64,000 nucleotides of DNA. Source: Alphaproteobacteria bacterium MarineAlpha3_Bin2 (GTDB taxonomy: Bacteria; Pseudomonadota; Alphaproteobacteria; Rhodospirillales; Casp-alpha2). Shown here one piece after another: positions 43,441 through 45,957 of this stretch (position 1 is its first letter; every line of letters starts with the position of its first letter). Below the pieces are notes generated by a model. It had not been told where the DNA came from and searched no databases. It saw nothing but the letters and a program-made list of their open reading frames with translations. The translations under genes and the position numbers were made by a program. The stretch spans positions 1-64,000 of the forward strand of contig PTLL01000004.1 in assembly GCA_002938315.1 (NCBI GenBank). The letters are read 5' to 3'.

Positions 43441-44007
43441 ATGCCTTCGGCGCGTGAGGTCATGACGGCCCTCTACGGCACTTACCGGCTGGCCCGCCTC
43501 GATGCCGCGGGAATGGACTTTTTCGACGCGACGCCGGCGGGGTTTTGGCGGTCTTTTTTCGCCGCCGTGCTGATCGCCCCATTTTATCTATTGTTGTTAA
43601 CCATTCGTTTTTCCGGACTGCCGGAAACGGCGCCGTTTTTCAGCTTCATCGCCATCGAATCCATCGCCTACGTCATCGTCTGGGTCGCCTTTCCCCTGCT
43701 GATGGCGTCGTTGGCCAAAATTCTCGACCGGGATTCGCACTACATCCGCTTCATCGTCGCCTATAACTGGGCCGCGGTCCTGCAAAACGGCCTCTATCTG
43801 CCGATCGCCATCATGGCGACATCGGGCCTGTTGGCTGCCGGAACGGCCAATGCGCTGGGACTGATGGCGCTCAGCCTGATCGTGTTTTACACCTGGTTTA
43901 TCACCCGTACCGCGCTGGAGATTCCGGCCGGCATCGCCGCCGGCATCGTCGGTTTGGATTTTCTGCTGAGTATTCTGATCAATACTGTTGCTACGGGGTT
44001 GCTTTGA
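43441..44007 (+). CDS. Integral membrane protein of unknown function
   Basis: A 188-residue protein with about five hydrophobic segments (near residues 38-55, 68-85, 105-125, 130-150, 160-182). It has no motif I recognise; the general plan is that of Yip1-like small membrane proteins. It starts at ATG 43441, 5 bp after dapE, so it is the last gene of the dapD-dapE run. Function cannot be assigned. Confidence 0.7.
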   Translation: MPSAREVMTALYGTYRLARLDAAGMDFFDATPAGFWRSFFAAVLIAPFYLLLLTIRFSGLPETAPFFSFIAIESIAYVIVWVAFPLLMASLAKILDRDSHYIRFIVAYNWAAVLQNGLYLPIAIMATSGLLAAGTANALGLMALSLIVFYTWFITRTALEIPAGIAAGIVGLDFLLSILINTVATGLL

Positions 44008-44391
44008 AGGCGGTGGTGGGTTGGGGGTTCCAGCGGGGTGAGGGGGGCAGCTTGCTGGCCGGGAGCGGGGATTTCCCCTCCGAAAGTCTTAAAATCACCT
44101 GAAAGCGGTCGCCGTTCCGATTCGCTTATAGAGTCCGGGTTTAGCAATAACCCGGCCTGCGGGCATGAACACAAATGTCCGTTTCAACCACTGAGGTCAC
44201 GGAAAAATGAGACAGCCGGGATTTATCGTTACGGGACCATTTGGCGACGCTTCGCCGTGCCTAGCAAACGATTGGGCCGCTCCGAAAACCTTTTGTCATA
44301 GCGGATTACCAGATGGGCAATCGGACGGATTGTACGAAAACTGTGTGCGCTATCCTGGCTCACCAAATCGCTATTTAACGGAGTAATGCAC
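44008..44391. other. Intergenic region after dapE operon
   Basis: No supported gene. It holds a G-rich stretch (44030-44075) and the hairpin at 44135-44155 that may end the dapE operon. An 87-codon frame at 44038-44301 has no ribosome-binding site and an atypical composition, so I treat it as chance. Confidence 0.4.
44135..44155. terminator. Hairpin after the dapD-dapE operon
   Basis: CCGGGTT (44135-44141) and AACCCGG (44149-44155) form a perfect 7-bp stem with a 7-base loop. No T-tract follows, so it may act as an RNA stabiliser or weak terminator. It is 128 bp after the last membrane-protein gene. Confidence 0.35.
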
Positions 44392-44475
44392 GTGGATTAC
44401 GATGAGGATTTTGAGGATTTGGATTGCCAGATGACAGACGACGGAACCTGTCAGTTGGCTGGAACCGAAGAATGA
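44392..44475 (+). CDS. Tiny acidic Cys-containing ORF with UGA before further in-frame codons
   Basis: A 27-residue ORF starts at GTG 44392, eight bases after GGAG (44380-44383); an upstream ATG at 44386 would be too close to that site. The peptide is very acidic (Y-D-E-D-F-E-D-L-D) with Cys at two points. After the UGA at 44473-44475 the same frame continues D-E-C-P and reaches UAG at 44488. In frame with a C-x-x-C-like spacing, the UGA occupies a place where Cys would be natural. It may be a short real protein that ends at UGA, a gene truncated by TGC-to-TGA mutation, or a selenocysteine candidate. No function is recognised. Confidence 0.4.
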   Translation: MDYDEDFEDLDCQMTDDGTCQLAGTEE

Positions 44476-44490
44476 GACGAATGCCCGTAG

Positions 44491-44821
44491 CTTCCAATAA
44501 TCCAACATTTCCGATTGCACGTTTTTTTAATTTTTTCCTAGATTCTCTCCCTAAAACGGACCTTATTCTGTAATTAGGCTAATAGACTAATTCTTGTCGG
44601 TCCGTAATTGGCATCCAGAGCCATTCGGCACCAATCGGCCGTCCGAAACGGCATAATAATTAATTTATAACAATAGCTTAATGCCTACCCAGCCAAAGGA
44701 GGCGCGAAGGTATTAAATTAGGAAAATGTAGACAAATATAGAGGGGTGCAGAGGAATGCATATATTTTGAATGAGATTTGCCATAATACATGGCCGGCCC
44801 GCCGGTAGTGGATAGACTTCC
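44491..44821. other. AT-rich island without a supported gene
   Basis: About 330 bp of clearly lower GC than the flanks (runs such as TTTTTTTAATTTTTTCC near 44523). The only ORFs are short and lack a ribosome-binding site; one 10-codon ORF beginning near 44682 is followed by a GGAGG-like tract. It could be leader DNA of an accessory gene or old horizontally acquired sequence. Confidence 0.35.
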
Positions 44822-45153
44822 CTAAGGCAGCAGCCAGCTGATGCCGATCATCGCCAGCAGCACCGGTGAGGTCAACAGGCCGGCGACGGCGAGCACAGTA
44901 AGCCGACGAAGGCCCAGGAGACATGGCCCAGAAACAAGGCCACCAACGAACAGATAAAGGCCAGCGGCACGAAAATATAGCCCTTGGTGAAAATGCCCAG
45001 GAGGCCGAGCGCGATTGCGGCGGCGCCCATAAACGGGACGCCTTCTCGGTCATCCGGTACATCGGCCGCCGGTTGGTCGGATACCGGTTGATCGGATTCC
45101 AGCCGGTCCGGGGCCGGTGGTTTCGGTTTCAGGCGAAGCGGTATTTTAAACAT
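44822..45153 (-). pseudogene. Small membrane protein gene interrupted by a frameshift
   Basis: From ATG 45153 the frame encodes a proline/aspartate-rich linker then two hydrophobic segments (about residues 43-62 and 65-80), but it runs into a TGA at 44872 after a Ser/Pro/Cys tail. In the next frame the sequence goes on as A-V-A-G-L-L-T-S-P-V-L-L-A-M-I-G-I-S-W-L-L-P and stops at TAG 44822, which restores a normal membrane protein of about 110 residues. One base is therefore gained or lost around 44885-44905. The gene may be decayed or the read may contain an error. Confidence 0.55.
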
Positions 45154-45219
45154 GGCTGAATGGACTATACGGGCCGGGTGTGGCCGAGACAACGTGATCC
45201 GGGGCCGCCCGATGGGTGT

Positions 45220-45957
45220 TCAGTAGGTGACCTCGACCAGATAGAGGCCTTCGGCCGGGGCCGTGGGGCCGGCGGCGGCACGTTTTTTTTGCGCCAGCGC
45301 CGCCGTAACGTCAGCCGCCGTCCATTTGCCTTCGCCGACCAGTTTTAACGTGCCGACAAAATTCCGGACCTGGTGGTGAAGAAAAGACCGGGCCCGGACA
45401 TCGAACGCGATGACATCCCCCTCGCGGCTGACATCCAAGCTGTCCAGGGTCTTGACCGGCGATGTCGCCTGGCAATTGGTGGCCCGGAAAGAGGTAAAAT
45501 CATGTTTTCCGATCAACCCCTTGGCCGCATCATCCATGGCGTCTGCATCCAACGGCACCGGCACCCACCAGCTGAATCCGCGTTCCAGGGTCAGCGGCGA
45601 ACGGCGATTGGTGATGCGATAGACGTAGTGACGGCCCGTCGCCGACAGGCGGGCGTCAAAATCATCATCGACCGGGGCGGCCTCCAATACCGCAATGGCG
45701 GCGGGTTTGAGGTGAAAATTAAGGGCCTTGCGGACGGTATCCGCCGTTTCCTCCCGATCAAGGGTGAAATGAGCGACCTGGCCCAGGGCATGAACCCCGG
45801 AATCCGTGCGCCCGGCGCCGAATACTTTCACCGATTGGCCGGTGAATTTCTCCAAGGCCTCTTCAATCGCCTGCTGAACGCTATAGCCGTTTTCCTGTCG
45901 TTGCCAGCCGACGAAGCCGGTACCATCGTATTCAAGGAGAATTTTATATCGAGACAT
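45220..45957 (-). CDS. truA: tRNA pseudouridine(38-40) synthase TruA
   Basis: A 245-residue pseudouridine synthase that modifies the anticodon stem-loop of many tRNAs. The catalytic aspartate lies in [12 protein letters not shown] near residue 55, and the F[12 protein letters not shown] motif is near residue 205. Length is normal. In related genomes this gene often follows def-fmt; here about 1.2 kb with an inserted plus-strand gene separates it from fmt. Confidence 0.96.

Follow-up and report, generated by a model that had tools for sequence, protein, structure and literature searches.

We analysed a stretch of 64,000 nucleotides from Alphaproteobacteria bacterium MarineAlpha3_Bin2 (contig PTLL01000004.1, positions 1 to 64,000 of the forward strand), called the window below. 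The locus considered here is flanked by genes in the order dapE, membrane protein, small membrane protein on the minus strand, truA, an order conserved within the genus; dapE and truA are putative assignments made from the sequences. The site was compared with six other loci of the genus, genomes G001, G002 and G008 being left out. The distance between the end of the upstream membrane-protein gene and the start codon of truA is 1952 bases in the window and 1978 bases in G004, compared to 1104-1180 bases in the five others. Thus a small reading frame located in this region lies in an insertion of about 0.8 kb (Table 1). The insertion sits between convergent genes, and no other gene was recognised within it. 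The insert of G004 at the same site seems to consist of other, apparently broken ORF pieces.

Table 1. Features of the insertion and of the reading frame (positions in the window)
Feature	Positions	Strand	Remarks
Intergenic insertion of about 0.8 kb holding the frame	44010..44820, approximate		missing from five of the six other genus loci compared by synteny
Dispersed intergenic repeat left of the frame	44024..44181	+	pieces match other places
Shine-Dalgarno-like site GGAG	44380..44383	+	from sequence; 8 nt before GTG 44392, 2 nt before ATG 44386
Truncated reading frame, ATG 44386 or GTG 44392 to TGA	44386..44475	+	matched to the family by the window-free profile
Acidic N-terminus, Cys1 (44425-44427) and Cys2 (44449-44451)	within 44386..44475	+	
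TGA at the Cys3 position of the family	44473..44475	+	TGC in L060
In-frame remainder D-E-C-P (including Cys4) and TAG 44488-44490	44476..44490	+	codons identical or synonymous to L060
Dispersed repeat right of the frame	44487..44805	+	from the TAG of the frame onwards similar to the copy that G004 has at this site

The small membrane-protein gene next to the insertion (44822-45192 or 44872-45192, minus strand) is frameshifted near position 44896. Its last helix, AVAGLLTSPVLLAMIGISWLLP, is encoded in another frame, and the gene is read in a single frame in G004 (L003). This frameshift could point to local sequence errors. A plasmid search with the DNA of positions 44000-44820 produced no match, and the only Rfam match obtained with positions 43900-45300 was sub-threshold and located elsewhere. 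An upstream frame of 59 amino acids (44207-44386) was considered as the start of a transposase and dropped, as it had no Pfam match.

Both dispersed repeats have features of their own. The one to the right of the frame (copies L003, L042, L043, L045) ends in TTTGCCATAATA and has direct repeats of the TGTAGAC type and a motif AAAGGAGG, and two of its copies (L042, L043) begin, as judged by eye, with a promoter-like TTGACT/TATATT. It has at least 12 matches in G004, the query copy included, and at least six in G006, and matches occur in at least seven of 61 genomes. As we read the copies, one side of the repeat abuts the 3' end of a convergent gene, and the neighbours on the other side differ. 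Some copies of the repeat to the left (L035-L041) in related genomes read as frames of the MSAFGGKAD type; no paper containing 'AFGGKAD' repeat strings was found.

Before the TGA the frame encodes VDYDEDFEDLDCQMTDDGTCQLAGTEE. A first-pass annotation, made from the letters of the sequence, had described a good GGAG site feeding the GTG at 44392, an acidic peptide of 27 codons with two cysteines, and a UGA followed in the same frame by D-E-C-P and UAG. All these elements are present as described. The GGAG site at 44380-44383 has a better spacing to this GTG (8 nt) than to the ATG (2 nt), a start at which would give 29 codons. The peptide contains 11 acidic residues, and its N-terminal stretch, VDYDEDFEDLD, is acidic. 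The codons after the UGA are GAC GAA TGC CCG (44476-44487). The same annotation considered a clean extension of only four codons to be a notable coincidence, which proved to be ordinary: among 523 TGA-ended stretches of at least 40 codons in six frames of the window, 95 extend by at most five codons, and six of these 95 (6/523) do so with a cysteine. UGA is an ordinary stop codon in the window, since it terminates nine of 20 genes chosen by eye.

A family of small acidic four-cysteine proteins

In the frame, C, DG-x-C, AGTEE, the stop and DECP follow one another in an arrangement that resembled a known protein type. We scanned viral contigs with a degenerate DNA pattern for DG-x-C-x2-AG-x-E-x-C-D, which was based in part on the window and in part on this protein type. 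The pattern matched 66 stretches (IMG/VR loci L057-L122), 57 of which were judged by eye to encode one coherent protein; the other nine (L058, L068, L088, L095, L096, L102, L110, L113, L114) were set aside by eye as non-family. Removal of identical peptides left 49 members for the alignment and profile. A stricter pattern including C-P matched ten viral stretches.

The members have an acidic start followed by C-x4-DG-x-C-x2-AG-x-E-x-C-D-x(1-2)-C. The residues D, G, Cys2, A, G, E, Cys3 and D were fixed by the pattern, and thus their invariance in the alignment is circular. The following features lie outside the pattern. Cys1 stands exactly four residues before DG in all 57 relatives and in the window (LDC-QMTD-DGTC). 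Cys4 is found in 56 of 57 relatives, the remaining one being cut by its contig end, and is followed by proline in 40 of 57. Finally, there is an acidic stretch ahead of Cys1, in the family and in the window frame alike. The frame also has the A-G-[ST]-E core after Cys2 (A, G and E being pattern-fixed), and the Cys4-Pro of its DECP follows the TGA in register, as in the family tail. It shares with the family the acidic start and the order and spacing of C-x4-DG-x-C-x2-AG-[ST]-E-x-C-D. However, it lacks Cys3 before the D, where it has the TGA, has no tail after CP, and lies outside any phage gene block.

Relatives were also found in 13 further bacterial-genome loci (45 stretches matched the pattern), including those of Stakelama, Croceicoccus, Nitratireductor, Novosphingobium, Devosia and cyanobacteria. 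Searches of protein family collections gave nothing convincing: three Pfam families with 50 members as queries (best E 0.015), ten PHROGs families with 50 members, each matched by at most two of them (best E 0.0042, phrog_2764, 2/50), and two NCBIfam families with 49 members (matched by three and one, best E 0.0064). No match to the family was found in PADLOC or in a profile search of PDB, and none of six peptide strings from the family was found in a paper. By these sequence searches, the family of small acidic four-cysteine proteins appears to be uncatalogued and to occur mainly in phage contigs. The structure of the L060 segment predicted with the family alignment is of low confidence (mean pLDDT 61.6, pTM 0.28). 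The spacing of the four cysteines suggests that they may hold a metal ion.

A block of the phage contig L060 (6524-11039) encodes ERF, YqaJ, the four-cysteine protein and SSB in that order, separated by small ORFs. At five further loci, chosen by eye and including two bacterial contigs, DUF5131, a PDDEXK-like domain, MT-A70, YbcO and HNH are encoded nearby; across all six loci, eight of ten proteins tested had a Pfam match. Given these neighbours, the gene context points to DNA-processing blocks.

To compare the frame with the family we used a profile built from the 49 members, the window's own row being left out. A first search, made with an alignment that held this row, was circular and is not counted. 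In six frames of the window the window-free profile finds the frame with E 1.5e-9, the TGA (read as X) falling under the consensus cysteine. Among the matches listed in a search of 297 genomes, the own genome has 37.4 bits (E 7e-9), and 41 of the 296 others have matches with E values no higher than 0.5, the strongest scoring 17.9 bits. When 385 genomes of the class were searched, only the own genome reached E 0.001 among the matches listed, and none of the 384 others did. The frame of 29 amino acids matched nine of 100 relatives, namely its own genome and eight weakly; the best weak match (L011) was rejected because it is read out of frame within a longer ORF, and L012 is that same gene in a sister genome. 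A read-through query in the 297 genomes retrieved its own locus and weak matches in seven genomes, none of them convincing by eye. The frame had no match in Pfam, PHROGs or NCBIfam, and neither tblastn nor contig scans gave a match when the read-through frame or L060 served as query.

It is very improbable that a random frame in spacer DNA resembles the family by chance. The window contributed to the pattern, and most of the profile score precedes the UGA. However, 37.4 bits is to be set against at most 17.9 bits among the matches listed in the 296 other genomes, and the spacing of Cys1, the acidic start and Cys4-Pro, all outside the pattern, fit as well. It is the family match, and not the short clean extension, that goes beyond chance. 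The truncated frame scores 34.3 bits; with the tail added it scores 34.7 bits with X at the UGA, 35.6 bits with W and 41.3 bits with C. The bulk of the score thus sits before the UGA, the tail with X adding only 0.4 bits, and therefore the tail is supported mainly by its register and by the comparison with L060.

The UGA codon at the third cysteine position

The codon of Cys3 was analysed with a pattern in which it was left free and Cys1 was required. This pattern matched 47 viral stretches (34 distinct peptides), of which 35 have TGC, 12 have TGT, and none has TGA. Dropping the requirement for Cys1 added two stretches (TCA, CGG), both devoid of family features, and a pattern demanding TGA matched a single stretch in the viral contigs (L163), an unrelated frame full of stops. 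The proposal of the first-pass annotation that the UGA stands where a cysteine is expected is therefore well founded. As TGC or TGT occupies this position in all 47 viral stretches, we count the frame as a broken copy of the family and not as an intact member.

The most similar sampled relative is L060, with 20 of 33 aligned positions identical. Both share LDCQMT and the shorter CDECP ending; L060 has in addition an upstream CxxC segment, which the frame lacks. In an ungapped comparison of 30 codons, ten are identical, nine synonymous and 11 changed, one of the latter being TGA for TGC. Beyond the UGA the codon pairs are GAC/GAC, GAA/GAG, TGC/TGT and CCG/CCG, two identical and two synonymous. 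These codon pairs fit translation of the tail during most of its past and do not date the stop. The annotation had suggested to look in homologues for TGC at this codon and for conserved D-E-C-P. The cysteine codon, Cys4 and C-P did recur, at the frequencies given above, and the exact short D-E-C spacing between Cys3 and Cys4 did not, being common to the frame and only one of 56 relatives, L060.

Three explanations had been offered for the UGA: selenocysteine, a recent TGC-to-TGA truncation, and a true end of the gene. The last is disfavoured, as the reading frame of the homologues goes on to include Cys3 and Cys4.

Decoding of the UGA as selenocysteine in place of Cys3 is very unlikely. Two observations speak for it: the UGA aligns with a conserved cysteine, the frame continuing in register behind it, and two other members of the genus (G005:C197 and G008:C126) encode a full-length SelA. 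SelA is absent from the other eight genomes searched, the own genome included, so that the selenium trait is patchy in the genus and, with two carriers, exists nearby. The own genome, however, is 97.08% complete, and no SelA, no SelB over the cut-off and no tRNA-Sec over the gathering score were found in it. The eight sub-threshold SelB matches were taken for other GTPases. Among nine weak tRNA-Sec matches, ARAGORN reads eight as Ser, Leu, His, Cys or Gly tRNAs; the ninth (G000:C60) had no locus and was outside this comparison. The suggested SECIS-like stem-loop just after 44475 did not appear either: no stable structure was found by folding energy, the values being near those of shuffled sequences (z +1.25, +0.04, +0.85 and -0.78). 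No second homologue with TGA at Cys3 was found in the viral contigs (0/47). A probable metal-ligand cysteine is an unusual place for selenocysteine.

These results can be set against a metagenomic survey of selenoproteins. New families were accepted there with SECIS-like structures and, previously reported candidates excepted, at least two TGA sequences, and singleton TGA/Cys pairs were treated as possible sequencing errors (PMC1088965). The frame is like the bacterial selenoproteins found as TGA/Cys pairs in having a TGA aligned with a conserved cysteine and a frame running on behind it, and differs from them in being a singleton, with no SECIS-like fold and no selenocysteine machinery found in the genome.

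Slightly less improbable, if still very unlikely, is the broader possibility that the UGA is translated, giving an acidic four-cysteine protein of the phage type with selenocysteine or a readthrough residue at Cys3, and that the machinery was missed. If true, this would add a new family of selenoproteins or of recoded genes, among proteins whose genes lie in recombination blocks in some phages. A functional short peptide, or programmed or leaky readthrough of the UGA with a useful product, is improbable as well. The ribosome site and the start are intact, and the codons after the UGA are synonymous relative to L060. However, the synonymous change may be older than the stop or belong to the branch of L060, none of the viral relatives ends at this point, and among the matches listed there is no other copy at E 0.001 in the class or above 17.9 bits in the relatives.

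Origin and fate of the frame

Of the three explanations offered, the recent truncation is favoured. The frame is likely a nonsense-truncated copy of the uncatalogued acidic four-cysteine family, acquired and now decaying. Since no family member above 17.9 bits is among the matches listed in the 296 relatives, horizontal gain of the gene is likely, and we infer that it probably arrived by this route. One base change at the conserved Cys3, from TGC or TGT to TGA, would then halt translation, leaving the cell with an acidic peptide of 27-29 residues and two of the four cysteines. If the four cysteines bind a metal ion, the truncated product could not do so. The copy has probably lost its function. 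The piece lies in the insertion with dispersed repeats on both sides and most likely represents a decaying remnant. The start and the Shine-Dalgarno site are undamaged, as are the remaining conserved residues, so the decay, if real, is young.

The main rival to the nonsense truncation is an error in base calling or assembly, in which case the organism would carry TGC or TGT and encode an intact protein of 32-34 residues with all four cysteines. We consider this unlikely, if clearly less so than any of the readings that involve chance or translation of the UGA. The sole defect of the frame is one base in one assembly: it is one base away from an intact gene, with the Shine-Dalgarno site, the start and the other conserved residues present. 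An error is made somewhat likelier by the neighbouring membrane-protein gene, which carries a frameshift absent from G004, and it would agree with the view of singleton TGA/Cys pairs in the survey (PMC1088965). However, nothing was seen in the assembly that marks the base as doubtful.

Genes with nonsense mutations occur in intergenic remnants of bacterial genomes. The nonsense-truncated frame resembles them in having a single stop in a recognisable frame inside a lineage-specific insertion. It differs from them in that the gene is very short and the frame contains no second disabling change.

The reading of the sequence without tools had caught a true Cys/UGA pair, and it was homology together with the check for the machinery, and not the context of the stop, that resolved it. 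At the same time, a recurring family turned up that has no convincing model in Pfam, PHROGs, NCBIfam or PADLOC, and in one phage contig it adjoins the recombination genes ERF, YqaJ and SSB.
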